From the NCBI GenBank assembly GCA_024698145.1, contig JAILRO010000003.1, forward strand, positions 1 to 62,196: a DNA stretch of 62,196 bases, in the 5' to 3' direction. Source of the stretch: Lachnospiraceae bacterium. GTDB taxonomy: Bacteria; Bacillota; Clostridia; Lachnospirales; Lachnospiraceae. Below the pieces are notes generated by a model. The model was not told the DNA's origin. It was given only the letters and a program-made list of their open reading frames with translations, and searched no databases. Shown piece by piece: positions 9,333-25,547 of the stretch (within the stretch, counting starts at the first letter, position 1; the number at the start of each line of letters is the position of its first letter). Position numbers and translations under genes: made by a program.

Positions 9333-9462
9333 AACTCGAATCTCCTAATACATTATCGAGAATTTATTATAACACTTTTCAGGAATTTTATCTATCAGAT
9401 TTTTAATACTCAGCCAAGCAATTCCTCAACTGCTTTTCTCACCTCACCCATCAAAATGATGT

Positions 9463-10332
9463 TTACGACGATATATTCTCCATTATCTTTATAGCCGATG
9501 ATGTTATTGCCAATCCGTCTTTACTCGTTTCCCTTAGGCACTCCGGTAACAGATTTCCAATCCTTTTCATGGAATCAATCACTTCATCAGGCTCAATCCT
9601 GCTTCTAATTCCCGCAATAGCCATTTGTGATGAAACTATCGCATTGACTGCACCGGATACATTTCTCTTAATACAAGGTACCTCGACAAGACCGCCTACA
9701 GGATCACATGTAAGACCTAGCATATTCTTAAGTGCTAATGCAGCTGAATGAATAATTGCTTCATTATCTCCGCCTTCAAGATAAACAACCGCCCCCGCTG
9801 CCATCGCACTTGCCGAACCTATTTCTGCCTGACATCCTCCTTTAGCACCGGATATTTCCGCACTCTGTGCAATAACCTCTCCAATTCCTCCCGCGACATA
9901 AAGTGCTTCTATTATTCTATCCTGTGCAACCTTCTTTTCTTCCTCATAGGTAATTAACACTGCAGGTATTACTCCGCACGAGCCTGCCGTCGGTGCCGCC
10001 ACAATACGTTTCATACAGGCGTTTGACTCACCCATTTTAACCGCTTTTTCAATTACCTTAGTAAGAAAATCTCCGATCAACCTGTTTGGCTGCTTTCTAA
10101 AGTCCTCTAAAAGCTTACCGTCTCCACCGGCCATACCGCTTGCAGATTTAGCCTTAGAATCATAGTTAGAATCCGCCTCTTTCATTGCGATATACATATC
10201 CGTCATTTTAGAAAATGATTCTTTCTCTGTTATTCTGTTTTCCCTGCAATTATCATTTAAAATCACCTGCCAAAACTTAAGGTTCTCATTTTGGGCATCG
10301 GATAATATTTCTCTTAACAACCTATAACTCAT
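9463..10332 (-). CDS. sdaAA: L-serine dehydratase, iron-sulfur type, alpha subunit
   Basis: 289 residues, normal for the catalytic subunit. It carries the [4Fe-4S] ligand regions of this oxygen-sensitive family: PTAGSCGVIPA, GGCQAEIGSA and LTCDPVGGLVEVPCIKRN. It deaminates L-serine to pyruvate and ammonia using the cluster as Lewis acid, without PLP. The start overlaps the beta-subunit stop (ATGA, 10329-10332), showing translational coupling. SD GGAGGTAG. Confidence 0.96.
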   Translation of the reverse strand: MSYRLLREILSDAQNENLKFWQVILNDNCRENRITEKESFSKMTDMYIAMKEADSNYDSKAKSASGMAGGDGKLLEDFRKQPNRLIGDFLTKVIEKAVKMGESNACMKRIVAAPTAGSCGVIPAVLITYEEEKKVAQDRIIEALYVAGGIGEVIAQSAEISGAKGGCQAEIGSASAMAAGAVVYLEGGDNEAIIHSAALALKNMLGLTCDPVGGLVEVPCIKRNVSGAVNAIVSSQMAIAGIRSRIEPDEVIDSMKRIGNLLPECLRETSKDGLAITSSAIKIMENISS

Positions 10333-11006
10333 AGACTACCTCCTGTTGGTATCAGGCTGTAATAAGTTACCTTAACGACTCCTTCAAGCTTCTTTAGCCA
10401 CTCAACCGCCGATTCCGGTATTTCCTGATCACACTCCAAAATCATGACTGCGTTACCACCACGATTCTCCCTATATAACTGCATAGACGCAATGTTTACA
10501 GACTTATGCGAAAGCATACTTGTAACCTCCGCTACGTGTCCCGGCTGATCTAAGTTATGTACAATTAAAGTAGGACGGTCTCCCGAAAAATTAGCGGAAA
10601 GACCGTCTATAGCTGCAATATTAATTATGGAACCGCCCAGGGATTCCCCGACAATTTCTAACATTCTTCCGGACTTCCCTGTTAATTTGAGTAGTACGGA
10701 GTTGGGACTTGCGTCCTTAAGGGATATTCCCGAAAACTTGATATCAACACCCATTTTGTCAGCAATTTCTAAGCTTTCGGGAATTCTAACGTCATCAGGC
10801 TGCATTCCTAAAAGACCTGCAACTATTGCCTTATCGGTACCATGACCTTTGCCTGTTGCCAAAAATGAACCGTGCAAAAATATTTCGGCCTTAACAACCT
10901 GTTCTGAAAGCAGTTTATGTGCCACATATCCAATTTTAACGGCTCCGGCAGTATGGGAACTTGATGGTCCTACCATCACCGGACCTATAATATCGAATAA
11001 CTGCAT
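10329..11006 (-). CDS. sdaAB: L-serine dehydratase, iron-sulfur type, beta subunit
   Basis: 225 residues. It begins MQLFDIIGPVMVGPSSSHTAGA, the family signature of the beta subunit, and ends in an ACT domain (residues about 150-225, from PTLIVHNLDQPGHVAEV) that may bind serine. It forms the heterodimer with sdaAA. It begins 4 nt after the class III aminotransferase, so serine breakdown is in the same transcript as the LIV/aminotransferase island. Confidence 0.96.
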   Translation of the reverse strand: MQLFDIIGPVMVGPSSSHTAGAVKIGYVAHKLLSEQVVKAEIFLHGSFLATGKGHGTDKAIVAGLLGMQPDDVRIPESLEIADKMGVDIKFSGISLKDASPNSVLLKLTGKSGRMLEIVGESLGGSIINIAAIDGLSANFSGDRPTLIVHNLDQPGHVAEVTSMLSHKSVNIASMQLYRENRGGNAVMILECDQEIPESAVEWLKKLEGVVKVTYYSLIPTGGSL

Positions 11007-11010
11007 TTAC

Positions 11011-12345
11011 TCACCTCATATAAAAGGGATCACTGTCTACTATCTTAATTACCTCTTCAAGCTTATCAAGTTCTTCATTAAGCTGTTCTTCGGTAATAAT
11101 AAGCGGCGGATTACAAAGAACCATATTCTCATGACCGAATGTCATAAATCCTCTTTCCTTAAGCAATCCTATAATTGACGAAAGTTTTCCGTGAGGATCC
11201 TGTCCATAAGGAACTATCGGCTCTTTTGTCTCCTTGTCCTTAACAAACTCAACACATGAAAACAGTCCAATATGTCTCACATCACCGACACAGTTATATT
11301 TTTCCTTAAACTCATCAAGCCTGTCTGCCAAAACCTTGCCTACCTTATTAACATTGTCGAGAATATTTGCCTTGCTGTAATAATTAACACAAGCCACTCC
11401 CGCTGCACACGCAAGCGGATGCCCGCAGTATGTAAGTCCGCACGAAAGTACATGGTCATCAAAATACTCTGCGATTTTCTTACTTACACACACGCCTCCA
11501 AGCTGTATGTAACCGCATGTAACTCCTTTTGCAAATGTTACAATGTCCGGTTCAACATCAAAGTTCATAAACGCAAACATCTTTCCTGTTCTACACCAAC
11601 CGGCCATTACCTCGTCACAAATCATCACAATTCCAAACTCATCACATAACTTTCTTACGCCCTGCAAATATCCCTTAGGCGGAATAATGATACCGTTTGT
11701 TCCTGTAATCGTCTCCAAAATGATTGCTGCAATCTGGTCACGACCCTCATAGATAATCTGCTCACGAAGTTTACTTATATAAAACTTTGTAGCCTCTTCT
11801 TCAGACTCAAAAGTAATACTTTCTCTGTATATGTACGGATCAAAAAACTTGATAAATCCGGGCATTCCGGGTTCGAGCGGGAATCTTCTGGGTTCACCCG
11901 TTACATTACCCGCACCAAATGTTGAGCCATGATAACTTCTGTAACGACTCATTACCTTATATCTTCCCGTATACATTCTTGCCATCTTAATTGCATTTTC
12001 ATTAGCATCTGCTCCGCCGTTGGTAAAGAATACCTTTCCCATATTATCCGGCATAAGGTCAACTATCATTTTGGCAAGTTTTGCTCTTGACTCAACTCCG
12101 TAACCGGGACCCATCCATGCGTATTTATCAATCTGTTCCTTCATTGCATTGTTGATATCTTCATTACCGTATCCCAGATTGACATTGACCTGAGTTGAAG
12201 ACATATCCGTATATCTATTCCCGTCATAATCCCAGATATATATTCCTTCAGCTTTTTCAATAGGAATAGGACAAACGTCATTCTGCTTCGCCCAAGACTG
12301 CAGATAATATTTCTTCTGTGTTTCGGATATTTCTTTTCCAGTCAT
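11011..12345 (-). CDS. Class III aminotransferase, omega-amino substrate likely
   Basis: 444 residues from ATG 12345 (GGGAG 9 nt upstream; an in-frame ATG at 12354 has no SD room). Fold-type I PLP enzyme. PLP phosphate and ring motifs are in FFTNGGADANENAIKMA and RSYHGST, the Asp is in VMICDEVMAGWCRTGK, and the Schiff-base Lys is in VTFAKGV. The GADANENAIKMAR form, as I recall it, occurs in the subgroup with taurine:2-oxoglutarate aminotransferase, but GABA, beta-alanine or 5-aminovalerate are equally possible. Last enzyme after livFGMHJ, just before sdaAB. Paired in the island with an iron alcohol dehydrogenase that could reduce the aldehyde product. Confidence 0.85.
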   Translation of the reverse strand: MTGKEISETQKKYYLQSWAKQNDVCPIPIEKAEGIYIWDYDGNRYTDMSSTQVNVNLGYGNEDINNAMKEQIDKYAWMGPGYGVESRAKLAKMIVDLMPDNMGKVFFTNGGADANENAIKMARMYTGRYKVMSRYRSYHGSTFGAGNVTGEPRRFPLEPGMPGFIKFFDPYIYRESITFESEEEATKFYISKLREQIIYEGRDQIAAIILETITGTNGIIIPPKGYLQGVRKLCDEFGIVMICDEVMAGWCRTGKMFAFMNFDVEPDIVTFAKGVTCGYIQLGGVCVSKKIAEYFDDHVLSCGLTYCGHPLACAAGVACVNYYSKANILDNVNKVGKVLADRLDEFKEKYNCVGDVRHIGLFSCVEFVKDKETKEPIVPYGQDPHGKLSSIIGLLKERGFMTFGHENMVLCNPPLIITEEQLNEELDKLEEVIKIVDSDPFYMR

Positions 12346-12371
12346 AATACACATCTCCCATCTGTTTTTAT

Positions 12372-13082
12372 TTATGCTCCAAGATATGCCTTTCTAACTT
12401 CATCATTGTGAAGTAATTCATCGGCATCACCTGACAGTTTAATCTTTCCTGTCTCTAATACATACGCACGATTTGCAACTTTAAGTGCCATCTTTGCGTT
12501 CTGTTCTACCAAAAGCACTGTTATTCCCTGCTGATTGACTTCCTTGATAATCGCAAAAATCTCCTGTACCAAGAGTGGCGACAATCCCATTGAAGGCTCG
12601 TCCATAAGTATAATCTTAGGGTCTGCCATCAGTGCTCTTCCTACGGCAAGCATCTGTTGCTCACCACCTGACAAAGTTCCCGCAAGCTGTGACTGTCTCT
12701 CTTTAAGTCTTGGAAACTTAAGAAATACTTCATCCATTCTCGCAATTATTTTGTCCTTGTCTTTTTTTGAAAACATGTATGCACCCATTTCGATATTTTC
12801 ACGGACAGTCATATCAACAAATACGTGTCTGCCCTCCGGAACGTGTGCAACACCATGTGTAATTATTTTACTCGGTTCTTCCTTCAAAAGATCGACATCA
12901 TCATACACAACCTTACCGCTCGTTGCTTTTTTAAGTCCTGTTATTGTATGAAGTATCGTTGTCTTTCCGGCACCGTTAGCTCCGATAAGTGTAACGATTT
13001 CTCCGTCATTTACCTCTACGCTGACATCCTCTATTGCATGTATAACTCCATAATGAACATTAAGATTTTCTACCTTTAACAT
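12372..13082 (-). CDS. livF: LIV-type ABC importer ATPase LivF
   Basis: 236 residues. Walker A GANGAGKTT, signature LSGGEQQMLAVGRAL, Walker B ILMDEPSMGLSP, and the LivF-style ending VRKAYLGA. One of the two ATPases that drive import through LivH/LivM. Start codon overlaps the livG stop by one base (TGATG). Family members carry branched-chain amino acids, amides, urea or other small amines. Confidence 0.95.
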   Translation of the reverse strand: MLKVENLNVHYGVIHAIEDVSVEVNDGEIVTLIGANGAGKTTILHTITGLKKATSGKVVYDDVDLLKEEPSKIITHGVAHVPEGRHVFVDMTVRENIEMGAYMFSKKDKDKIIARMDEVFLKFPRLKERQSQLAGTLSGGEQQMLAVGRALMADPKIILMDEPSMGLSPLLVQEIFAIIKEVNQQGITVLLVEQNAKMALKVANRAYVLETGKIKLSGDADELLHNDEVRKAYLGA

Positions 13083-13882
13083 CAGTCATCACCGCCTTCA
13101 TCCTCATCTTCTTTACCCAGATATGCTTCAATAACATCCTTATTGGCAGCTATCTCTTCCGGCGTTCCCGATGCAAGAATCTCTCCGAAATTAAGTACAT
13201 ATATGCGTTCGCAAATACTCATTACAAGGCTCATATCATGCTCGATAAGAAGAATCGGTATTCCGAACTTTTCTCTTAGCATTTTGATTGACTCCTTAAG
13301 TTCTGCTGTTTCAACCGGATTCATACCCGCTGCCGGCTCATCTAACAACAGAAGTTTCATATCCGTAGCAAGTGCTCTTGCAATTTCCAAAAGTCTTTGC
13401 TTTCCATACGGAAGATTCTCTGCATATTGATCTGCAAACCCCTCCAAGTTAAAAAGCTTAAGTAACTCCATCGCCTTTTGTGTTGTCTCTTCTTCTTCCT
13501 TCCAGAAGTATGGAGTTCTTATTATTGACTGAAACAGATTTGCCTTCATGTTCTTATTAAATGCGACCTTTACGTTGTCAAGAACCGTCATTTTCTTGAA
13601 TAATCTTATATTCTGAAACGTTCTTGCAATTCCCTCATCCACGACCTGATGAGTTTTTAATCCATTCATTCTCTTTCCACAAAGCATATAACTTCCTGTT
13701 GTCGGAGCATATATACCTGTAATAAGGTTAAATATCGTCGTCTTGCCTGCACCGTTAGGGCCGATAAGACCGATAAGCTCACCTTTGTATATTTCTATAT
13801 TTACATCATTTACCGCTTTAAGTCCTCCGAACTGTATTCCAAGGCTTTTCGTTTCCAATACCGGTACATTTTCCTCTGCCAT
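13082..13882 (-). CDS. livG: LIV-type ABC importer ATPase LivG
   Basis: 266 residues from ATG 13882 (SD GAGGTGATACAT; an in-frame GTG at 13891 is less likely). Walker A GPNGAGKTTIFN, the LivG-type signature YGKQRLLEIARAL, Walker B LLLLDEPAAGMNP, and a long insertion between Walker A and signature typical of LivG. The C-terminus is acidic (EDEDEGGDD). Second gene from the end of the five-gene importer. Confidence 0.95.
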   Translation of the reverse strand: MAEENVPVLETKSLGIQFGGLKAVNDVNIEIYKGELIGLIGPNGAGKTTIFNLITGIYAPTTGSYMLCGKRMNGLKTHQVVDEGIARTFQNIRLFKKMTVLDNVKVAFNKNMKANLFQSIIRTPYFWKEEEETTQKAMELLKLFNLEGFADQYAENLPYGKQRLLEIARALATDMKLLLLDEPAAGMNPVETAELKESIKMLREKFGIPILLIEHDMSLVMSICERIYVLNFGEILASGTPEEIAANKDVIEAYLGKEDEDEGGDD

Positions 13883-13916
13883 ATGTATCACCTCTCATAT
13901 AAGAATACTTTTATTC

Positions 13917-14939
13917 CTAACTGACCTTTTCTTTCTTCTTGCGTTTTCCGTCCAGTATCAAATCAGGCAGTGAGAATTCCTTGCCACCAAACAATCCGGT
14001 AGGCTTAAATATCATTACCACAACAAGTACTACTGCGTAAATGAGCATTCTATAACTTGCAAAATCCGGGAAAACATACGAGATAAGCTGTGGCAGTGCC
14101 GATAATATCGGTGCTGCAATTATTGAGCCTGTCATCGATCCGCTTCCTCCAAGTATTACGATTGCAAGAAACTCCGAAGACTTTGAAAAGTTAAAATATG
14201 TAGGAACCAATGTAGTAATGTAATGTGCATATATAGCACCTGCAACTCCCGCAAATGCTGCCGAGATTGTAAATGTAAGCACCTTTGTTCTTGTAACATT
14301 TATTCCCGATGCCGCAGCTGCTATTCTGTCCTCACGAATTGAAATCAATGCTCTTCCGTAACGTGAACGGATATAGCAATACATTATGGCTATACAAATT
14401 ACCATTGTGATATACACGTAATGATAATCAGATACTCTGGCAATTCCTGCAAAGGATTTACCAAATGTTGCATTTCCGGTAATCGGTTTGATACCGACAT
14501 TACTAAGTACAACCCTGACAATCTCTGCAACAGCAACCGTTACTATACAAAGATAATCTCCGGAAAGTCTTAATGCCGGAATACCAACAAGCACTCCAAT
14601 TATTGCTGCTGCCAATCCTCCGATTATGATTGCAATAAGATAAAGTGCAATGCTTGATAATTGAACATGGTCTGAAATAATTGTTGTTGCGATAGCGGAT
14701 GCATATGCACCTATCGACATGAAGCCGGCATGTCCTAACGAAAACTCTCCCATGTAACCTGTTAAAAGATTAAGGGAACAAACAATTATCGTATAGAACA
14801 TTCCGATTGTTACCAGACCGTTAAAATATGCTGCCTTTCTGCCAAGCAGTCCCGTATCAAATAGCAGACACAGAATCAGGAATACAACAGCAACCGCAAT
14901 AATATTAATCAAATATTTTTTCTTCATTATCTTAGGCAT
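13917..14939 (-). CDS. livM: LIV-type ABC importer permease LivM
   Basis: About 340 residues with 8-9 hydrophobic spans and the LivM landmarks GYMGEFSLGHAGFMSIGAY and SIREDRIAAAASGIN (coupling loop). ATG 14939 has AAGGA at the right distance. An upstream ATG at 14960 overlaps the livH stop as ATGA and could also be used. Confidence 0.93.
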   Translation of the reverse strand: MPKIMKKKYLINIIAVAVVFLILCLLFDTGLLGRKAAYFNGLVTIGMFYTIIVCSLNLLTGYMGEFSLGHAGFMSIGAYASAIATTIISDHVQLSSIALYLIAIIIGGLAAAIIGVLVGIPALRLSGDYLCIVTVAVAEIVRVVLSNVGIKPITGNATFGKSFAGIARVSDYHYVYITMVICIAIMYCYIRSRYGRALISIREDRIAAAASGINVTRTKVLTFTISAAFAGVAGAIYAHYITTLVPTYFNFSKSSEFLAIVILGGSGSMTGSIIAAPILSALPQLISYVFPDFASYRMLIYAVVLVVVMIFKPTGLFGGKEFSLPDLILDGKRKKKEKVS

Positions 14940-14956
14940 ATTCCCACTTCCTTCCG

Positions 14957-15844
14957 TCATACTTTTTCGCTTACTGCCTTACCGAGCAGTCCTGTCGGAC
15001 GTACAAGCAATACCACAATCAATATAAGATAAGTAACTGCTTCATATGTACCCGGCAACATATATACCTTAACCAAAATCTCTACTATACCAAGCAAGAG
15101 TCCTCCGACCATTGCTCCTGCAACACTTCCGATTCCGCCAAGAACCGCTGCAACGAATGCCTTAAGTCCCAATGTTATACCAAGTTCATTTTTGATACTT
15201 ACATAAGATGTCGTGTACATCATTGATGCAATTGCAGCAAGTCCGGAACCGATTGCAAATGTTATTGTAATTATCTTGTTTACATTAATACCAACAAGGG
15301 TTGACGCCACCTTATCTTCCGGAACCGCTCTCATTGCCTTACCAAGTTTTGTATATTTGATAAAGAGTGAAAGGATAATCATAACAACCACGCCAATTGC
15401 AAGTGTAAGTAATGTCTGTCCCGGTATTGATGCTCCCATAATTTCAATGGTTGGAAGCGAAAACATTGGTGGTACATTACGTGGTGCCGAGCCGAATACG
15501 ACTAAGGCACCATTTTCCAAAACAAGACTCATACCAAGGGCGGTGATGAGAGCAGTGGTAGAACCCTGTCCTCTCACCGGTTTATATGCAATCTGCTCCG
15601 TAAGTACACCTACACCAACGCATACACAAATTGCTGCTATAACCGCCAGCCATAACGGCAGTCCAAGGTTTTTCATAACCGGTATAGTATAGAACAGTGT
15701 AAAACCACCAACCATGATAAAATCACCATGTGCAAAATTGATCATCCTTATAATTCCATACACCATGGTATAACCGAGAGCTGTCAGTGCATATATAGAA
15801 CCAAGATTTAATCCATACATTAAACTCTGTATTAATTTTGTCAT
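14957..15844 (-). CDS. livH: LIV-type ABC importer permease LivH
   Basis: 295 residues, about eight membrane spans. The N-terminus LNLGSIYALTALGYTMVYGI, the MINFAHGDFIMVGGF segment and the coupling loop RAVPEDKVASTLVGIN are all diagnostic. Forms the channel with LivM. 32 nt after livJ. Confidence 0.95.
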   Translation of the reverse strand: MTKLIQSLMYGLNLGSIYALTALGYTMVYGIIRMINFAHGDFIMVGGFTLFYTIPVMKNLGLPLWLAVIAAICVCVGVGVLTEQIAYKPVRGQGSTTALITALGMSLVLENGALVVFGSAPRNVPPMFSLPTIEIMGASIPGQTLLTLAIGVVVMIILSLFIKYTKLGKAMRAVPEDKVASTLVGINVNKIITITFAIGSGLAAIASMMYTTSYVSIKNELGITLGLKAFVAAVLGGIGSVAGAMVGGLLLGIVEILVKVYMLPGTYEAVTYLILIVVLLVRPTGLLGKAVSEKV

Positions 15845-15876
15845 GTGCTCTCATCTCCATTCCTGTTTCTTATTTT

Positions 15877-17073
15877 TTAGAAGCTTCCGTAATACTTAAG
15901 TTCACCATTTTCAAAAGTTTCAATTGTAAACGGCTTAACCGCATCACCATTCTCATCATAAGTAATGGTTCCACCCATACTTTCGTATGTAATCTTTAAC
16001 AATGCATCCTTGATAACCGAAGGATCTGTGCTTCCTGCCTCTTCCATAGCCTGAACGAGCATCTTGATTGAATCGTAGTAAAGTGATGATACTGCATTTA
16101 ATCCGCTGTCTGAACCATACTCTTCTTTGTAAGCACCTACATAACTCTTAACTGCATCTGTATCAGCCGAAAGGTCTACGTGTGCAAGATAATAACAATT
16201 GTTGAACTTATCCTCGTATCCTGTTACATCAGTTCCGTCCCAAGCATCACCACCAAGAATCGGTCCGTCAAAGCCTGCATCACGTGCCTGCTGTACAAAG
16301 TTAGGAACCGTATCATAGTTGTTAGGATAAATGATAACCTCTGCGCCCTGTTCTATTGCCTTTGAAATCTGTGCTGTGTAGTCGGTATCTGTTGTAACAC
16401 ATCCATAGTGCTCATATTTAACACCATCTGTTGAATCAAGTGCACCCTCCATTGCCTCTGCAAGACCTGCACAATAATCTGAATCCTCTGCTGCTACAAT
16501 TGCAATGTTTGTTGCCTTAAACTCATCTGTTGCCATCTTTGCAAGTGTAGGTCCCTGGTTTGCATCCGAGAAACACTCTCTGAAAATGTAATCACCTGTC
16601 TTACAGATTGTTGCGTTTGTAGAATATGGTGTGATTACGAGCATACTGCTTGCCTGTGCTTCCTCAACGAATGATAATGTACAGCTTGATGAACAAGATC
16701 CGATAACTGCACTTACATCATATGATGCACAGTTGTTATAAGCACTTGCTGCCTCTGTTGCATCTGACTTATCATCTGCAAATACTGCCGATTCAAGCTT
16801 GTAAGACTTATCTCCAATCTTAACACCACCGGCTTCATTTACTTCTTTGATGGCAAGATTATAACCATTTTCTGCGCCCTCGCCCCAGCTTGCGAAGCTT
16901 CCTGTAAGCGGCGCGATACCTGCGATTGATACTGTTCCGTCAAAATCTCCTTCAACTTCAGCTGGTCCTGAACTACTCTTGCTTCCGGATGAAGCTCCAC
17001 AACCGGAAAGCATTCCCATTGCCATTGTTAATGTTGTAAGTAACGCTATAGTTTTTCCTATTCTCTTTCTCAT
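15877..17073 (-). CDS. livJ: LIV-type substrate-binding lipoprotein LivJ
   Basis: 398 residues. Lipoprotein signal with lipobox LSGCGASS (Cys near residue 25), a Ser/Lys linker, then a periplasmic-binding-protein type I fold: VSIAGIAPLTGSFASWGEGA is the first ligand loop, where branched-chain binders bind the alpha-amino/carboxyl group. It is anchored outside the membrane and defines importer specificity. First gene of the transporter set, 52 nt after the cytidylate-kinase-like gene. Ligand cannot be read. An omega-amino compound or a branched-chain amino acid are the main options given the downstream aminotransferase. Confidence 0.93.
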   Translation of the reverse strand: MRKRIGKTIALLTTLTMAMGMLSGCGASSGSKSSSGPAEVEGDFDGTVSIAGIAPLTGSFASWGEGAENGYNLAIKEVNEAGGVKIGDKSYKLESAVFADDKSDATEAASAYNNCASYDVSAVIGSCSSSCTLSFVEEAQASSMLVITPYSTNATICKTGDYIFRECFSDANQGPTLAKMATDEFKATNIAIVAAEDSDYCAGLAEAMEGALDSTDGVKYEHYGCVTTDTDYTAQISKAIEQGAEVIIYPNNYDTVPNFVQQARDAGFDGPILGGDAWDGTDVTGYEDKFNNCYYLAHVDLSADTDAVKSYVGAYKEEYGSDSGLNAVSSLYYDSIKMLVQAMEEAGSTDPSVIKDALLKITYESMGGTITYDENGDAVKPFTIETFENGELKYYGSF

Positions 17074-19071: not shown

Positions 19072-20232
19072 TCATAATATGGTGCTGATGCAATGTGCCG
19101 TAAAAAGAATTGCCTTGTTTTCCCAGGAGGAAATATCCATATCAAGGATCTCCTCAATTCGATTAAGATAATTATTAACAGTATTTCTATGAATAAACAA
19201 TTCTTCGCTTACTCTTCTTGTACTTCCATCGCATTCTATATATTTATCGATAAAGGTACAATACTCCGTCCCATTATCTTTGTCATAGTCAAGAAGCTTT
19301 CCCATTATGCTTTGGTACATTTCCAGTAACAGCTCATTGTTTTTAACATTTACAAGTAACTTGTATATGCCTAACTCCTGATACGTTAGCACATGTTCAT
19401 TTTTCTTAATTGCTATTCTACATGCCGCATAAGCACGCATAAAATTATTATCCTGTGTTTCAAAACCCTTTATGTTATCACTTATGCCTATATAAATGTA
19501 TGGAACACGCTTGTTTGCGGATATGGTCTTAAACAACATATCCGTATATTTTTCAATCTCCTCTGCACTGTAATTGATAAGAGCAACTATTCTCTTGTCC
19601 TGATATCCAAAGGAAATGTATTTATCATTTATTCTTTTTGCGGATTGCTCTGCAATCGTTTTTATTTTTCTGCTTTCTTCCACAAACTCGGAACTTGTCT
19701 TCTCCCATTCCAAAGAGATACAGACAAAAGACATACTACTGTCTTTTAAGTAGCCAAATCTCTCCATTTGGTGAATAAGTTCATGTTTGTCTCCCGTATG
19801 GAAAATAAGATTTTTTAATGTTGTCGCAATACTGTCCTGCCTTGAAATATGATCAACAATCCTCTTGCAATAATCTGATGTTAGATCTACAAGCGGGACC
19901 TCCCAAGGCACCGAAAACAGTGGAAGATTTTTTTCATTGCAAAAGTAGACTACATTACTCGGTACGTTAACAATAAACTTACCTGTGTTTAGAATAACCG
20001 CACTTGCATTATGGGCATGAACTTCCTTAACGTATGCCATCAATTCATCATCACTTCTGCATATTGCTCCCTCTGTGATAACTATCTCATTACCGTGAAG
20101 AAAACCGGCCCCCTCTACCGTTTCAACAATATGTATCCAGCTTACAAGGTTGGTAAGCCCGCCTTCTCCGGCATGCAGTTTAATTTTATATTTCGCTGAT
20201 TCTTTATACAAATCATTAACGGTAAGTGCCAT
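19072..20232 (-). CDS. PucR-family transcriptional regulator
   Basis: 386 residues. The N-terminal PucR sensor domain (about 5-125: LTVNDLYKESAKYKIKLHAG ... SAVILNTGKFI) is followed by a GGDEF-like middle region and a C-terminal PucR HTH (about 325-380: EELFIHRNTVNNYLNRIEEIL). The family controls nitrogen-scavenging operons such as purine or GABA breakdown, commonly as effector-dependent activators. It is 27 nt after the D-amino-acid transaminase gene and directly before the alcohol dehydrogenase promoter, so it sits at the hinge between the two halves of the island. Confidence 0.93.
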   Translation of the reverse strand: MALTVNDLYKESAKYKIKLHAGEGGLTNLVSWIHIVETVEGAGFLHGNEIVITEGAICRSDDELMAYVKEVHAHNASAVILNTGKFIVNVPSNVVYFCNEKNLPLFSVPWEVPLVDLTSDYCKRIVDHISRQDSIATTLKNLIFHTGDKHELIHQMERFGYLKDSSMSFVCISLEWEKTSSEFVEESRKIKTIAEQSAKRINDKYISFGYQDKRIVALINYSAEEIEKYTDMLFKTISANKRVPYIYIGISDNIKGFETQDNNFMRAYAACRIAIKKNEHVLTYQELGIYKLLVNVKNNELLLEMYQSIMGKLLDYDKDNGTEYCTFIDKYIECDGSTRRVSEELFIHRNTVNNYLNRIEEILDMDISSWENKAILFTAHCISTIL

Positions 20233-20259: not shown

Positions 20260-21099
20260 TTACTCGGTTGCGTCAATTATCTCCTGATACAAAGCGTCAC
20301 GAAGTGCAAATAATGTGTCCGGATCTTTTCCTCCAAACGGTTCTCCATCAAGCTCATTTACATACATGCAGACATTAGATGAGGATGTGATAATAATCTC
20401 ATCAGCCGACTTAAGATCCTCAAGATAATATGGTGTTTCGCTAACGCCGATTCCAAGTTTCTTGCACATTCTTACAAGATGAGCTCTTGCAATTCCCGGA
20501 AGTATCATGTCATCTGTTGGAGCCGTGTGTACTATACCGTCCTTTATAATATGACAGTTACAATGTGCACACTCCGTAATTCTTCCGTCATGTCTATACA
20601 AAATCGTCTCATCCGCCCCCATGTTATAAGCTTTTTCCGCATACAAAACGGATGGCAGAAGATTTAATGTTTTGCAGTTACAGTAATAAAATCTCTTATC
20701 CTCGGCCGTTACACATTTGATTGGCTTCTGACAATCATTAATTGTTTCCGGCTTAATCATTACCCACAGGTTACCGGGTCCCTTTTTGTATGTATGATTT
20801 CTTATTCCCGTTCCTCTTGAACAAGCCCAATAAACAAAGTTTTCTCCGGTATCCATCTTATGAACAAGTTCATTTAAAATATCCTTAAGTTCTTCCTTTG
20901 TACAAGGTATTTCAATATCCATAAGCGCCGCTGAATTAAAAAATCTGTCGATATGCTCATCGATTGCAAATAAATTGTAGTGTCTTGACGGACCTGCATC
21001 ATACACTCCGTCACCAAAGAAACACACTCTGTCGTTAAACGGCACCATCATGTTATCAAGTTCATCAAATTTTCCGTTATAATATCCTAATGTTTTCAT
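20260..21099 (-). CDS. dat: D-amino-acid transaminase (class IV PLP)
   Basis: 279 residues from ATG 21099 (GGAGGAATTGATT upstream). The frame is open to 21159 but that part overlaps the previous gene. It matches bacillary D-amino-acid aminotransferase along its length. FGDGVYD holds the Tyr, and SRGTGIRNHTY the Arg and His, that form the D-specific carboxylate trap (Tyr31, Arg98, His100 in the Bacillus enzyme); KTLNLLPSV carries the PLP lysine; ILPGIARAHL is the cofactor phosphate region. Reaction: D-amino acid + 2-oxoglutarate to 2-oxo acid + D-glutamate. It follows two D-glutamate-cyclase-type genes and pxpABC, a strong contextual fit. Branched-chain or ADC-lyase roles are less likely. Confidence 0.88.
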   Translation of the reverse strand: MKTLGYYNGKFDELDNMMVPFNDRVCFFGDGVYDAGPSRHYNLFAIDEHIDRFFNSAALMDIEIPCTKEELKDILNELVHKMDTGENFVYWACSRGTGIRNHTYKKGPGNLWVMIKPETINDCQKPIKCVTAEDKRFYYCNCKTLNLLPSVLYAEKAYNMGADETILYRHDGRITECAHCNCHIIKDGIVHTAPTDDMILPGIARAHLVRMCKKLGIGVSETPYYLEDLKSADEIIITSSSNVCMYVNELDGEPFGGKDPDTLFALRDALYQEIIDATE

Positions 21100-21124
21100 A
21101 ATCAATTCCTCCACTTCATTTATT

Positions 21125-21985
21125 TTATGCACAATTATCTTTAATTGGATTGCGTCCAAACTTTCTTAATGCACGCAATATTTCATGTTCTGTTTTCATG
21201 CTCTTACCGTCAACACTTATGCTGTGCCAGCCTGACACCCCGTCAACGCTTCCAAGTTTGACCGTTTTTTTGATGTAATCCTGTACCCAGTCAAAGCCCG
21301 GAACGAGTTCCTGCTTACACAATTTTGACAGAGCAGCAACTATACCGTATGCTCCCCAGTTTGAAACCGTTGCAATAACAAATATATCTGCGGGAATCAC
21401 GCAAGGCTCAAGCGACAACTTTCTCGATACAGGTCCTGCAATTTTGCCCATTCCTATCTCATTGCCTCCGTCGCCAACACCAATCGTCGGAATAATTCCT
21501 TGATACTTTAAAAACATTTCATCTATCGGAGCTGTAAATGCTCCAATGTCTTCACCACGCATATTGGTATATTTGCCGTGTTTGTTTTTTCCGCAACGTT
21601 CTATTGATATCAAACCCTTCGGCTCATACACCTTAATCAAATCGTCTATGTGTCGATCACCATTATCAAGTTCTACATATATCGTCTCTATATCTTCAGG
21701 CTCAAAAAAACCTCTGCAGAACTCATCAGTAATAATGATTGGGTCATATCCAATCTTTGAAAGTGCATGAGCAAGAGCAACCGTCCCGACAGGTCCGTCT
21801 GTTTCCGCATATCCCTTGACGTAAAATCCTGTAGTTAAGAATACATTTCCCCTTTCCCACGAAAGGATTTCCTTTGCAGCCTTCGTACAATAATCTGTTG
21901 AAAGATACAACCTTATATCAGGCATTCCCCTCTCGGAATATCGAAGAATAATATCTTCTATTGTTTCTGTCCTTTCCGCCTCCAT
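21125..21985 (-). CDS. D-glutamate cyclase-like protein, C-terminal half type (DUF4392)
   Basis: 286 residues, one base after pxpA, with its GGGAGGTG site inside the pxpA end. Motifs include FLTTGFYVKGYAETDGPVG, IGVGDGGNEIGMGKI and SNWGAYGIVAALS, typical of the DUF4392 / GLUCM-like C-terminal domain. In vertebrate mitochondrial D-glutamate cyclase this domain is fused behind a DUF1445 domain and the enzyme turns D-glutamate into 5-oxo-D-proline. Here the two domains are separate genes flanking pxpA. Family call good; activity inferred. Confidence 0.82.
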   Translation of the reverse strand: MEAERTETIEDIILRYSERGMPDIRLYLSTDYCTKAAKEILSWERGNVFLTTGFYVKGYAETDGPVGTVALAHALSKIGYDPIIITDEFCRGFFEPEDIETIYVELDNGDRHIDDLIKVYEPKGLISIERCGKNKHGKYTNMRGEDIGAFTAPIDEMFLKYQGIIPTIGVGDGGNEIGMGKIAGPVSRKLSLEPCVIPADIFVIATVSNWGAYGIVAALSKLCKQELVPGFDWVQDYIKKTVKLGSVDGVSGWHSISVDGKSMKTEHEILRALRKFGRNPIKDNCA

Positions 21986-21986
21986 T

Positions 21987-22763
21987 TCAACACACCTCCC
22001 TTAACAAGTTTTGCATTGATACAATTTCTATTCCTTCTGCAGTAAGTGCAGCATTTATTTTTCTTGCAAACTCAACAGCCTTCTCACCGTCTCCATGAAG
22101 ACAAACCGAATCCGCTTTGACCTCTATTGTTTTTCCAGTTATCGACTTGACAGTGCCGTTTTTTACCATCTCTATAACTCTTTGTATCGCTGTTTCTTCA
22201 TCTGTAATAACGGCTCCTTTCTGACTACGATCTACAAGCGTTCCGTCATCATTGTAGGCTCGGTCAGCGAACACTTCATTGGCTCCGCCAAGCCCTGTCT
22301 CTTTTGCGGCCTCAACCAACAAACTTCCCGAAAGTCCTAGAAGTATAAGGCTTGGATCCACCTCATATATTCCCTCTGCAATGGCAAGTGCCAATGCTTT
22401 GTCCTTTGCTGCCATATTGTACATAGCCCCATGAGGCTTTACATGTGATAATTTCATATCATAGGCCTTACAAAATGCATTTAACGCGCCTATCTGATAT
22501 TGAACCATCGCTTTTAGTTCTTTTGGTGTTACCGCCATCTTTCTTCTTCCAAAGCCGTTAAGATCGGGAAAGCCCGGATGAGCTCCAACGCATATACCAT
22601 GCTCTTTTGCAAGGCTTACAGTCTTGTCCATAACCACAGGATCCGCAGCATGGAATCCGCAAGCGACGTTTGCCGATGATATGTACGGAACAACCTCCTC
22701 ATCAAGTCCACATTTATAATTACCATAACTCTCGCCTATATCGGCATTAAGATCTATCTTCAT
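21987..22763 (-). CDS. pxpA: 5-oxoprolinase subunit A (LamB/YcsF family)
   Basis: 258 residues, full length. It starts MKIDLNADIGESYGNYKCGL and has VACGFHAADP, VGAHPGFPDLNGFGRR, HVKPHGAMYN and VCLHGDGEKAV, the His/Asp motifs of the LamB/YcsF fold. With PxpB and PxpC it hydrolyses 5-oxoproline (pyroglutamate) to glutamate using ATP. The pxpB-pxpC-DUF1445-pxpA order resembles the ycsFGI-kip locus of Bacillus. Stop TGA is followed almost at once by the DUF4392 gene. Confidence 0.95.
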   Translation of the reverse strand: MKIDLNADIGESYGNYKCGLDEEVVPYISSANVACGFHAADPVVMDKTVSLAKEHGICVGAHPGFPDLNGFGRRKMAVTPKELKAMVQYQIGALNAFCKAYDMKLSHVKPHGAMYNMAAKDKALALAIAEGIYEVDPSLILLGLSGSLLVEAAKETGLGGANEVFADRAYNDDGTLVDRSQKGAVITDEETAIQRVIEMVKNGTVKSITGKTIEVKADSVCLHGDGEKAVEFARKINAALTAEGIEIVSMQNLLREVC

Positions 22764-22787
22764 ATAATCATCTTCTTCCTTAATTTT

Positions 22788-23624
22788 CTAATATTTCAAA
22801 TTGACATTTTTTACATCAGATATAAACATATGGCCCGGCGAATGCGTTATACAAAAATCGGGTTTTGATGCCATAACAACCGACTGCGGGGTCACCCCAC
22901 ACGGCCAAAACACAGGAACCTCTCCCTCATTGATAATTACAGGATCCCCAAAGTCAGGATGAGCAAGATCTTCAATTCCTATCGCTTCAGGAAAACCGAT
23001 ATGAACCGGAGCACCATGAACCTTTGGCATTGCACCCGTAACAAGTACGGCTTTGGGTATAAGCTCATGCGGTATCGGCCGCATGCTTACAACCATGTTT
23101 CCATGAAATATTCCTGCACTCTTGCACTTAATATTCGTCTTGTACATTGGGACGTTGCAATTCATCTCTATTTGTCTTACGGGTATTTCTGCATTTAACA
23201 TCTCGCTTTCAAATGAAAAACTGCATCCGATAAGAAAACTTACAAGGTCTGTTCTCCAATAGTCCGATACATCCGTAAACTCTCCTACCAATTCACCTTT
23301 TTCATATATTCTATACTTTGGAATATCCTTCGTTATATCTGCACCCGGGGCTATGTCAGTTAAATATTTGCTTCCGGCATCCGTAACCTCAAGAAGCGGA
23401 CACGACTTAGGATTTTTAGTTGCAAATAAAAGAAAATCGAATGCATCCTTCTTCGGAAGAACTACAAGATTTGCCTGAGCATAACCTGAACACATTCCGC
23501 TTGTCTGACCCGTAATACTTCCCATTCTTATAAGCTGTCTCACTTCACGTGGAAGAAAATCGGCATAATCAGATGCTTTATTTTTTTCTGCGTATAGTTC
23601 CGGAATCTCCTTTATGTTTTCCAT
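22788..23624 (-). CDS. DUF1445 protein (YcsI / D-glutamate cyclase N-terminal type)
   Basis: 278 residues from ATG 23624 (GGAG 9 nt upstream; an in-frame GTG at 23630 is closer). Motifs include GMCSGYAQANLVVLPK, SFLIGCSFSFE, FWPCGVTPQSVV and DFCITHSPGHMFI, the signature of the YcsI family formerly called putative hydro-lyase. In vertebrates this domain is the N-terminal half of D-glutamate cyclase. It sits between pxpC and pxpA, with the partner domain one gene further on. Proposed role: interconversion of D-glutamate and 5-oxo-D-proline, or a related lyase step. Confidence 0.88.
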   Translation of the reverse strand: MENIKEIPELYAEKNKASDYADFLPREVRQLIRMGSITGQTSGMCSGYAQANLVVLPKKDAFDFLLFATKNPKSCPLLEVTDAGSKYLTDIAPGADITKDIPKYRIYEKGELVGEFTDVSDYWRTDLVSFLIGCSFSFESEMLNAEIPVRQIEMNCNVPMYKTNIKCKSAGIFHGNMVVSMRPIPHELIPKAVLVTGAMPKVHGAPVHIGFPEAIGIEDLAHPDFGDPVIINEGEVPVFWPCGVTPQSVVMASKPDFCITHSPGHMFISDVKNVNLKY

Positions 23625-23645
23625 TGTCACTCACTCCTTTAGTCT

Positions 23646-24566
23646 TTACTTCTTTCCAAACAAACGATGTATTAATCCTTTTTGCATATCCTGTAACGAT
23701 ACACATTTAAAACTTACTTCATTACCCGGTCTTGCCTGTGCAAGGTACTGCAAATCCTCACTTACCACCGTTGCAATCTTTGCATATCCACCTGTTGTCT
23801 GGTGGTCGGCCATTAAAATAATTGGTTGCCCCGATGATGTCACCTGGATTGAACCAAATGTTATTCCGTCAGATACAATATCCATGCCATTCTTGCTTTC
23901 TATTGTTTCACCGGATAGCCTTATTCCCATTCTGTCGCTTTCGGGTGAAACCTTATAAGTTGTATTAAAAAATGTATTTAGTCCTTCATCGGTAAAATAG
24001 TCGTCCTGAGGTCCTTTAATAACCCTTACACAAATACTGTCCGAATATGTCGGGGCTTCAACTTTATTTTTTAACAGTGCATCCTTTTTTGAATAGTCAA
24101 ACCCTCCGATTGTAAGAGCATCGCCTGTCTCTATTTTTCTGCCCATATATCCGCCCATTTGGCACTTTAGGTTTGTCGATCGGCTATCCATAACAACTGG
24201 TACTTCAATTCCTCCGGCAACTGCAAGATATGCTCTTAAGCCGTTAATCGCAAAACCAAATGTTAGTTTCTGCCCTTCGTATATTTCATAAGGTTTGCCT
24301 CGCTTAATTGACACGCCATCAATTTCCGCATTCATTTCTGCTCCCATATATGCAATAATTGCATCTGAATTAAAAACCACATCCGCACCTATAAATGTAA
24401 ACTCAAGTGCCGCCTCACCATTCTCATTTCCGACGAGCTTATTGGCTAATCTGTATGAGTATCTGTCCATTGCACCGGACTCTCCAACACCGTATTCCAT
24501 ATAACCAAATCTTCCTTCGTCCTGAACGGTTGTAAGTGAACCGGCTTTTTCAATATACATTTTCAT
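23646..24566 (-). CDS. pxpC: 5-oxoprolinase subunit C (KipA type)
   Basis: 306 residues. N-terminal KAGSLTTVQDEGRFGYMEYG and GAMDRYSYRLANKLVGN, later LAVAGGIEVPVVMDSRST and PIILMADHQTTGGYAKIA, all diagnostic of the biotin-carboxylase-C-like PxpC/KipA family. Works as a complex with PxpB and PxpA in ATP-dependent 5-oxoproline hydrolysis. 16 nt after pxpB. SD GAGGTGACTCTAT. Confidence 0.95.
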   Translation of the reverse strand: MKMYIEKAGSLTTVQDEGRFGYMEYGVGESGAMDRYSYRLANKLVGNENGEAALEFTFIGADVVFNSDAIIAYMGAEMNAEIDGVSIKRGKPYEIYEGQKLTFGFAINGLRAYLAVAGGIEVPVVMDSRSTNLKCQMGGYMGRKIETGDALTIGGFDYSKKDALLKNKVEAPTYSDSICVRVIKGPQDDYFTDEGLNTFFNTTYKVSPESDRMGIRLSGETIESKNGMDIVSDGITFGSIQVTSSGQPIILMADHQTTGGYAKIATVVSEDLQYLAQARPGNEVSFKCVSLQDMQKGLIHRLFGKK

Positions 24567-24582
24567 ATAGAGTCACCTCTTT

Positions 24583-25302
24583 CTACTCGTATACATATTC
24601 CGGATTATATTTGTTGTCTTTCACATCTTTTTGTATAGATTCATAATCCGAAATGCTAATCTGGATAAATCTTATATATTCGCCTGCATTACACAGCACC
24701 GGCTTTTCTCTTTGAGGATTGTAAAACTCAATCGGTGTGTTTCCGATAAGCCACCATCCTCCCGGGGAAGCAACAGGATAAACGCCTGTCTGATTACCTC
24801 CTATGCCAACCGAACCTGCAGGAATAGAGGTTCTTGGCGTATCAAGTCGCGGCATATGTATCCTTTTGTCAAGGCCTCCAAGATATGTAAAACCGGGCTG
24901 GAAACCAAGCATGTAGATTTTGTAATCAGACTGTGAATGAAGTTTAATAATCTCTTCCGTACTCATACCAAGTCTTGATGACATTTCCTTAAGGTCAGGG
25001 CCATAATCAGATCCATAACAACATGGAACACACAATATCTTTTTCTTTTCAGCCACCCCTTCTTCTTTGTCGTTTTTAAAATGTTTAATTTTCCCTATCA
25101 GTTTTTTGTAGCTAATCACATTACTGTTATAGAAAATCATAAGGCTTCGAAAAGTCGGTAGCAGTTCTCTTATACCGGATATATTTTGACTGCGGATAAA
25201 ATCGGCCAATCGTTGAACTTTTCTATTGATTTCATCATCAATCTCCATTCCAAACTCAACTATAAGCGCCTCATCACCTGCAGGTAAAAATCTCATTTCC
25301 AT
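24583..25302 (-). CDS. pxpB: 5-oxoprolinase subunit B (KipI type)
   Basis: 239 residues from ATG 25302, chosen because GGGAG lies 9 nt upstream and the protein then begins MEMRFLPAGDEALIVEFG as in PxpB. An in-frame ATG at 25332 lacks an SD. C-terminal half has LGFQPGFTYLGGLDKRIHMP and SVGIGGNQTGVYPVASPGGW, the cyclophilin-like KipI motif. In Bacillus KipI also inhibits a sporulation kinase; the operon here points to the enzymatic role. First gene of the pxp/D-glutamate operon. Confidence 0.94.
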   Translation of the reverse strand: MEMRFLPAGDEALIVEFGMEIDDEINRKVQRLADFIRSQNISGIRELLPTFRSLMIFYNSNVISYKKLIGKIKHFKNDKEEGVAEKKKILCVPCCYGSDYGPDLKEMSSRLGMSTEEIIKLHSQSDYKIYMLGFQPGFTYLGGLDKRIHMPRLDTPRTSIPAGSVGIGGNQTGVYPVASPGGWWLIGNTPIEFYNPQREKPVLCNAGEYIRFIQISISDYESIQKDVKDNKYNPEYVYE

Positions 25303-25364
25303 AACAATCATCTCCCACTTGATTATCTTCATAGCGTAAAATCATATAACCAAAAGCCAAAGAA

Positions 25365-25407
25365 AAAGGCGTTTATTGGCACAATCATTGTGCCAATAAA
25401 CGCCTTT
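25365..25407 (-). promoter_or_regulatory. 43-nt perfect palindrome in the pxpB leader
   Basis: Two perfect 20-nt arms (25365-25384 and 25388-25407) with a 3-nt loop. At its centre is GGCACAA-N3-TTGTGCC, similar to the dyads before the alcohol dehydrogenase. On the minus strand TTTTTCTTT follows, so the RNA would make an intrinsic terminator or attenuator about 60 nt before the pxpB start. It lies just downstream of the -10 TATAAT at 25424-25429. Confidence 0.7.
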
Positions 25408-25423
25408 GCCCGTTCGTTATTAA

Positions 25424-25429
25424 ATTATA
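25424..25429 (-). promoter_or_regulatory. -10 box of the pxp operon
   Basis: Perfect TATAAT on the minus strand. Seventeen nt further upstream the hexamer is TTATTT, a poor -35, as at the other island promoter. An activator is therefore likely. The previous gene's terminator (25443-25487) is just upstream. Confidence 0.45.
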
Positions 25430-25442
25430 TAATTCACGTTTT

Positions 25443-25487
25443 TAAAAAATAAGGGACTGTATAAATACAGCCCCTTTGCTATGTGCA
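25443..25487 (-). terminator. Terminator after the second iron alcohol dehydrogenase
   Basis: Hairpin of the form AAGGGGCTGTA / TACAGTCCCTT (one mismatch) followed on the minus strand by ATTTTTT. It lies 60 nt after the stop of the gene at 25548-26726 and insulates the pxp operon. Confidence 0.75.
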
Positions 25488-25547
25488 TATTATATTGTCT
25501 GATTTTCAAAATGTCAACTTTATTTTTTTAGTTTTAAAACCATGACG

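Follow-up and report, generated by a model that had tools for sequence, protein, structure and literature searches.

The vertebrate D-glutamate cyclase (DGLUCY, GLUCM_HUMAN; 9030617O03Rik in the mouse) is one fused mitochondrial protein built of two domains, DUF1445 and DUF4392, and D-glutamate is its expected substrate. The mouse fusion is reported to cyclise D-glutamate, with 5-oxo-D-proline as the reported product and both enantiomers run as standards (PMC5339696). In bacteria, the subunits of the 5-oxoprolinase PxpABC are encoded in operons that have been described as pxpA/ycsF, ycsG, ycsI, pxpB/kipI, and pxpC/kipA in Bacillus subtilis and as pxpTABC in Corynebacterium glutamicum. Here we analyze a 62,196-nucleotide stretch of Lachnospiraceae DNA (hereafter the window), in which an operon at 20260-25302 shares pxpABC with these two species and also carries DUF1445 and DUF4392 as two separate genes, together with a class-IV transaminase. 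From the distribution and conserved sites of these genes we propose, at somewhat below an even chance, that DUF1445 is a cofactor-free 5-oxoproline (pyroglutamate) epimerase with a fold of its own, which together with a Mn-dependent DUF4392 cyclase and PxpABC would form a one-way, ATP-driven D-to-L glutamate inverter.

Gene content and spread of the operon

The six genes all lie on the minus strand and are separated by successive gaps of 16, 21, 24, 1, and 25 bases. The first, pxpB (24583-25302), encodes 5-oxoprolinase subunit B (CT_C_D, 252.8 bits in Pfam; over the cut-off of TIGR00370 in NCBIfam) and was read from an ATG at 25302, with a further in-frame ATG upstream at 25332. It is followed by pxpC (23646-24566, start read at 24566), which encodes subunit C (CT_A_B, 327.3 bits) and exceeds the broad NCBIfam model TIGR00724 (316 versus a cut-off of 230.2) and falls under the equivalog NF045499 (264.5 versus 500). 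Next come the DUF1445 gene (22788-23624, ATG at 23624), whose product scores 230.3 bits against PF07286 ('D-Glu_cyclase'; cut-off 25); pxpA (21987-22763, start read at 22763), encoding subunit A (LamB_YcsF, 351.8 bits; over the cut-off of an NCBIfam subfamily model); the DUF4392 gene (21125-21985, start read at 21985), whose product scores 246.2 bits against PF14336 ('GLUCM-like_C'; cut-off 27.9); and the transaminase gene (20260-21099, ATG at 21099; Aminotran_4, 143 bits). All three PxpABC subunits are present within the one operon. A preliminary description made from the sequence had given the same six identities, positions, shared direction, and short gaps, and Pfam, NCBIfam, and the coordinates bear it out; the two DUF assignments, for which it had proposed a domain search, both lie far over the family cut-offs.

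Among 60 near genomes (the organism's own, 25 of its genus, 10 from the rest of the family, and 24 from the rest of the order), PF14336 was found in six, namely its own and 5/25 congeners, with 0/10 and 0/24 in the wider family and order. In a phylum sample of 398 genomes (completeness of 90% or more and contamination of 5% or less in 356), PF14336 was present in 43, PF07286 in 64, and pxpA in 121. Gene maps were drawn by tblastn with the window proteins at a limit of 1e-10, at which distant copies can escape, and matches to the cluster transaminase (DAAT) below 43% identity were not counted. The best 80 of at least 582 named loci matching the DUF4392 alignment, a selection leaning towards the window's kind, comprised 14 with all six genes (two of which repeat phylum loci), four with five genes and no transaminase, four with transaminase, DUF4392, and fewer of the others (three ending at contig ends, by the coordinates as read), 32 with the DUF1445-DUF4392 pair only, and 26 with DUF4392 only. 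From the phylum sample, 40 stretches were fetched for the 52 PF14336 match rows and 40 for the 66 PF07286 rows; the DUF4392 stretches comprised four six-gene sets, three with DUF1445, DUF4392, and pxp genes but no transaminase, eight pairs, 23 with DUF4392 alone, and two that gave no tblastn row.

By these maps a six-gene set takes up about 5 kb, and the sets show six gene orders. The window has B-C-1445-A-4392-DAAT, the commonest order is DAAT-B-C-1445-A-4392, and the remaining four are DAAT-4392-B-C-1445-A (L007), DAAT-A-B-C-1445-4392 (L043), 4392-DAAT-B-C-1445-A (L054 and L143), and B-C-1445-DAAT-4392-A (L125, L126, and L130, from Spirochaetaceae/Treponema). One of the 14 named six-gene loci, L137 from Eggerthellaceae, has its genes split into two divergent groups. 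Hosts among the named loci include Lachnospiraceae, Schwartzia, Oscillospiraceae, Peptococcaceae, Treponema, and Eggerthellaceae. Because six gene orders recur and the families co-occur far over expectation, as described below, the grouping of the six genes beyond chance is confirmed. In a PxpA tree, from which alone the repeats L141 (of L045) and L129 (of L078) were dropped, the PxpAs of six-gene sets form nearly one clade, with 21 of 22 rows inside it, three label changes, and L137 outside. Also in this clade is the PxpA of L077, a genome in which the transaminase gene adjoins pxpB and pxpC on a different contig. As the Spirochaetaceae/Treponema PxpAs nest within a mostly Bacillota clade, the tree suggests that the six-gene set was transferred as a module.

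Co-occurrence of DUF1445, DUF4392, and PxpABC

Across the 398 phylum genomes, 63 of the 64 with DUF1445 also had pxpA (19.5 expected, p 5e-38), the single exception (G390) being an 86% complete genome, while 58 of the 121 pxpA genomes had no DUF1445. DUF4392 was accompanied by DUF1445 in 32 of 43 genomes (6.9 expected, p 2e-20); 11 of these 43 had DUF4392 without DUF1445, and half of the DUF1445 genomes (32/64) had no DUF4392. When DUF1445 was present, 31 of 32 DUF4392 genomes also had pxpA, versus 4/11 when it was absent, which is the background level (3.3 expected). As the species are related the p-values are optimistic rather than strict; the asymmetry is independent of them. The same dependence was seen in gene neighbourhoods: in 40 stretches in which DUF1445 lies away from DUF4392, all of pxpABC adjoined it in 32, part in three, and none in five. 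Among 31 genomes (32 loci) with the pair and no linked pxpABC, a count from which L152 was left out as its DUF1445 is in two pieces, pxpA was found elsewhere in 24, with one match partial, and the remaining seven all had PF05378, a broad family that we take to include the other type of 5-oxoprolinase. The last point is weak, as PF05378 occurs in 19/31 pair genomes and 7/14 control genomes.

In the control genomes of Escherichia coli and C. glutamicum, pxpA is present and PF07286 absent, and C. glutamicum is reported to be able to grow on 5-oxo-L-proline; DUF1445 is therefore not needed for use of the L form. PF07286 was present in the B. subtilis control genome, where the DUF1445 gene of the pxp operon is presumably ycsI, and PF14336 was absent from all 14 control genomes, including that of B. 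subtilis. In the order that fits these data DUF4392 comes first, DUF1445 second, and PxpABC last, with DUF1445 serving PxpABC even where DUF4392 is missing. Because DUF1445 is tied to pxpA, often without DUF4392, and the link between DUF4392 and pxpA needs DUF1445, DUF1445 looks like a separate enzyme acting between the other two. The preliminary description had taken DUF1445 and DUF4392 for the halves of one cyclase, a claim that does not sit well with the number of genomes having one alone. Sequentially linked functions are also how the authors of the TON_0340 study read the animal fusion (PMC5132392). L115 (6829-7629) and L117 (3412-4203) each carry a second DUF1445 gene that has diverged (41 and 44% identity), beside a Liv-type ATP-binding cassette (ABC) transporter and with no pxp genes in the stretch.

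A predicted route from D-amino acids to L-glutamate

The theme of D-amino acids, D-glutamate, and 5-oxoproline, and its tie to the two vertebrate cyclase domains, had been recognized in the preliminary description and stands. The route it drew, from D-glutamate through 5-oxo-D-proline to glutamate, left the D-to-L step unassigned and as drawn nets nothing, although the description had itself raised the question of PxpABC stereochemistry. Because ring opening spares the alpha carbon, 5-oxo-D-proline would be turned back into D-glutamate with ATP spent on the way, and a single operon encoding both a cyclase and a 5-oxoprolinase for the D form would merely burn ATP. The described substrate of PxpABC suggests that it is L-specific, and if so, an inversion at the alpha carbon is needed. 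This step has so far had no enzyme assigned to it, and the distribution of DUF1445 fits it. As for a D-specific PxpA, the comparison of group-specific positions, which among the three subunits covered PxpA, found no position that separates the 22 six-gene PxpAs from 20 (of 58) PxpAs of DUF1445-less genomes at the thresholds used, and conservation across the full set of 81 rows reached 98% or more at 39 positions; nothing seen in PxpA hints at a change to the D form, a result that simply fails to show one. A separate racemase gene near DUF4392 was considered and dropped: the single match to the Asp/Glu racemase family in the organism's own genome is on another contig, and no such family was found among 30 proteins scanned from a selection of neighbours of DUF4392 loci. 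The 'racemase of Thermovirga lienii' compared by Ariyoshi et al. is, according to their figure legend, a DUF4392 protein, and its label was given no weight.

Our preferred reading, to which we give close to an even chance, is a catabolic one-way operon that would carry D-amino-acid nitrogen, with the glutamate skeleton, to L-glutamate in four steps. The class-IV transaminase would use D-alanine or another D-amino acid as amino donor to 2-oxoglutarate, forming D-glutamate, which DUF4392 would cyclise to 5-oxo-D-proline at a two-Mn site without ATP. DUF1445 would then convert 5-oxo-D-proline to 5-oxo-L-proline without a cofactor, using two cysteines as acid and base, and PxpABC would open the L form to L-glutamate with ATP, pulling the chain forward. 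The genes, their linkage, the dependency running from DUF4392 to DUF1445 to PxpA, and the conserved metal and cysteine sites are observed. The basis of the second step is the activity reported for the mouse two-domain fusion (PMC5339696) and that of the fourth the literature on Bacillus and Corynebacterium PxpABC; we infer the activities in this organism, the domain that performs the second step, and the whole of the third.

In DUF1445, residues C134, C242, H203, E139, and M266 are invariant across all 90 aligned rows, a number that includes two repeats, and the invariant Cys, His, and Glu suggest catalysis. A structural model with a predicted local distance difference test (pLDDT) score of 91.9 places each cysteine at the junction of a strand with the helix that follows it (strand 127-133 and helix 136-144 around C134; 235-241 and 245-253 around C242), as the cysteines of two-base racemases are placed; the pair of invariant cysteines at helix starts expected of a Cys/Cys racemase is thus seen in the alignment and the model. 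The fold matches 2pif and 3db9 (target template modelling (TM) score 0.92-0.93 in Foldseek), and beyond these members of its own family the only hit at E up to 0.001 was MJ0159/3nek, an NrpR-like regulator domain (E 9e-6 and 1.5e-4, TM 0.39/0.48). NrpR-type repressors sense 2-oxoglutarate, a C5 acid like glutamate. An internal duplication of DUF1445, as in racemase architecture, was tried and set aside, as the alignment sets C134 on C242 with a score no better than shuffles; in the same half-versus-half test the transaminase and PxpC scored higher, DUF4392 about the same, and PxpA and PxpB lower, and rotating one DUF1445 half left the score unchanged, which is uninformative. We do not file DUF1445 in any known racemase family; it is predicted only to work like one.

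DUF4392 is predicted, by analogy, to be a Mn-type D-glutamate cyclase. Two-metal lactam closure without ATP is comparable to creatininase run backwards. The metal ligands reported for TON_0340, a Thermococcus DUF4392 protein, are Glu59, Asp61, Glu115, Asp157, Glu161, and Asp246 (PMC5132392), which by our reading of the alignment correspond to E61, D63, E129, D172, E176, and D259 of the window protein; the six are invariant in 37/37 and 35/35 rows, and the model (pLDDT 94.7) matched the TON_0340 structures at a target TM of up to 0.88. Cyclase activity itself is reported for the mouse fusion (PMC5339696).

DUF4392 also occurs in other settings. In L056, L062, L067, L070, L072, and L075 it lies one gene (in L062, four) from a gamma-glutamyltranspeptidase, and five of these six loci also carry a transporter and an AstE/AspA-like protein, the families being assigned from one scanned member per group. 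The genomes concerned (G095, G137, G173, G355, and G398) all have DUF1445 and pxpA, and this neighbourhood fits release of D-glutamate from gamma-glutamyl peptides. In L140 (9001-12736), DUF4392 is followed by a protein of about 470 residues with no Pfam match and by a Mur-ligase-type protein, with gene ends overlapping by a few bases; L142 and L159 appear to have the same succession of genes, the proteins scanned being those of L140 alone. In L058, L066, L079, and L080 it stands with parts of a tripartite ATP-independent periplasmic (TRAP) transporter, a malic-enzyme-like protein, and a GntR regulator, in genomes (G108, G147, G182, and G238) that all have neither DUF1445 nor pxpA, and here DUF4392 may have another role.

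The closest solved structures to the transaminase are the D-amino-acid aminotransferases 3daa and 1daa (E 2e-39). The Tyr/Arg/His carboxylate trap of D-amino-acid aminotransferase, which the preliminary description had pointed out, aligns with 1daa/3daa and is kept, along with the catalytic lysine, in 27/27 cluster transaminases (25 without two repeats). All 27 also share the motif TECAH[SCT]N. Among 30 phylum class-IV matches, taken from the best matches of the 286 genomes with a match, the eight best (the organism's own included) carry TECAH and the other 22 do not, the first set scoring 286 bits or more and the second 168 bits or less; the tblastn for class-IV loci missed a second class-IV gene of the organism's genome (L202). 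Six of the eight TECAH genomes have DUF4392, DUF1445, and pxpA. The motif presumably lies near the cofactor and may mark a narrow substrate range. TECAH transaminases with no pxp genes nearby were seen at L234 (8930-9763) and L235 (8598-9404).

Several points weigh against the four-step route. The strongest is that the mouse fusion contains a DUF1445 domain and yet its reported product is 5-oxo-D-proline, since an active epimerase domain should yield the L form too; if DUF1445 is an epimerase, the vertebrate D-glutamate cyclase would be a cyclase-epimerase fusion whose epimerase half is lost or silent. Foldseek gave DUF1445 no racemase fold at E up to 0.001, and the two-lobe sequence test was not significant, with 8/200 shuffles equally good. 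DUF4392 stands without the other five genes in 23/40 phylum stretches and 26/80 named loci, and the weak Mn-dependent phosphatase activity described for TON_0340 is not predicted by a cyclase role. The TECAH transaminase is found in just 6/43 DUF4392 genomes, two of the eight genomes that carry it (G303 and G306) have no pxp genes near it, and the window enzyme scores under the equivalog cut-off of TIGR01121 (195.5 versus 277.45), although this is its best NCBIfam model.

We consider it unlikely that a single D-glutamate cyclase is split between DUF1445 and DUF4392, its product 5-oxo-D-proline being either excreted or ring-opened by a PxpABC that tolerates both stereoisomers. The vertebrate fusion, the cyclase activity of the mouse protein, and the adjacency of the two genes in 28 same-strand stretches (gaps of -35 to 113 bases by the chosen starts) speak for it, and the frequent occurrence of either gene alone and the attachment of DUF1445 to pxpA speak against it; cyclising and then opening the same enantiomer is ATP loss alone, and no DUF1445-DUF4392 fusion was found among those 28 bacterial stretches, the set in which one was searched for. 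DUF1445 could instead assist PxpABC, as an extra subunit, as an activator, or by repairing it, rather than catalyse a step of its own, with DUF4392 supplying 5-oxoproline. Such a role is also unlikely: it agrees with the near-absolute dependence of DUF1445 on pxpA and with the placing of its gene among pxpA, pxpB, and pxpC, but 58 of the 121 pxpA genomes and the E. coli and C. glutamicum controls manage without it, and the invariant Cys, His, and Glu suggest catalysis.

The flow might also be reversed, the PxpABC of this clade opening imported 5-oxo-D-proline to D-glutamate, from which the transaminase would make 2-oxoglutarate and D-alanine. Human excretion of 5-oxo-D-proline is reported to exceed that of the L form (PMC5339696), Liv-type transporters are close by, and the six-gene PxpAs are nearly one clade; against this, no PxpA position marks that clade off at the thresholds used and the flow would be opposed by a D-glutamate cyclase encoded alongside, and we regard this reading as rather improbable. 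Very unlikely, finally, is a substrate that is some other lactam or gamma-glutamyl compound, with DUF4392 as a phosphatase-like hydrolase of the DHH/RecJ kind. The phosphatase activity of TON_0340, its DHH/RecJ resemblance, and the varied contexts of DUF4392 speak for it, whereas a D-type transaminase shares the operon, and the mouse enzyme is reported to cyclise D-glutamate and its knockout to accumulate it (PMC5339696).

Neighbouring genes and comparison with known systems

Upstream of pxpB, on the same strand, a sequence scan found a sigma-70-type promoter at 25489-25517 (TTGACA-17-TATAAT, 12/12 positions), both hexamers of which are kept in two congeners. A first terminator-like hairpin (25451-25476) lies a few bases past the likely transcription start, in the predicted leader, and a second (25365-25407), of 20 pairs and a T run, lies between promoter and pxpB; two such sites were found versus 0.2 expected. 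By our reading of the alignment, L009 preserves the first stem with altered bases and has a hairpin of another sequence in place of the second; the congeners too have hairpins in this leader. Promoter and hairpins together (25365-25517) look like attenuation or antitermination control, and Rfam gave no match in this leader at the gathering score. A PucR/CdaR-type transcription regulator gene (19072-20232, minus strand; Pfam, NCBIfam) starts 27 bases past the transaminase, in the same downstream place as in L008 and L009, and is possibly the regulator of the operon. Farther downstream lies a Liv branched-chain-type ABC transporter set (12372-17073, minus strand; Pfam, NCBIfam) of two ATPases, two permeases, and a binding protein (15877-17073), a candidate uptake system for a D-amino acid or 5-oxoproline; such genes were found near pxp or DUF1445 loci in the window, L007, L100, L113, L115, L117, L125, L126, L130, L133, L134, and L143. 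Still farther downstream on this strand, 7830-12354 is a region of amino-acid metabolism, with a class-III aminotransferase, a two-subunit iron-sulfur L-serine dehydratase, and an amino acid permease.

Peptidoglycan should make D-glutamate and D-alanine abundant in gut and rumen, and to our knowledge the recovery of D-amino-acid nitrogen by fermenters is poorly mapped; the operon offers a directly testable route for it. It also proposes a separate job for each of the two domains that are fused in the human enzyme and named by Pfam after one activity, and makes DUF1445 a candidate for a 5-oxoproline epimerase activity. As people are reported to excrete 5-oxo-D-proline (PMC5339696), bacteria with the operon might also use host waste. 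Literature searches, from which most subscription papers fell outside, returned no title or start of an abstract on this bacterial route among the listed papers naming D-glutamate cyclase, DUF1445, or DUF4392, and no paper using any of four names for a 5-oxoproline or pyroglutamate racemase or epimerase.

Set beside the described systems, the window transaminase shares with 1daa/3daa the class-IV family, the Tyr/Arg/His trap, and the lysine, and differs from 1daa in having TECAH[SCT]N in place of TEGSSSN and in its score below the equivalog cut-off. The DUF4392 protein is like TON_0340 (4dwz, 5gl2-4) in fold and in all six acidic ligands, at about 31% identity in the fold search, whereas TON_0340 was studied as a phosphatase and not as a cyclase. 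The passages on the vertebrate cyclase describe no 5-oxoprolinase or transaminase partner, and those on the B. subtilis and C. glutamicum operons describe no transaminase and give no function for ycsI. Gut-microbial counterparts of D-glutamate cyclase have been tabulated as 0 full-length and 6 split (PMC12547972, Table 1). The split cyclase in gut microbes was thus already known, as was a DUF1445 gene, presumably ycsI, within the B. subtilis pxpABC operon. New, as far as our searches go, are the six-gene module with its several orders, the dependency chain from DUF4392 through DUF1445 to PxpABC, the stereochemical argument with its candidate enzyme, and the transaminase signature.

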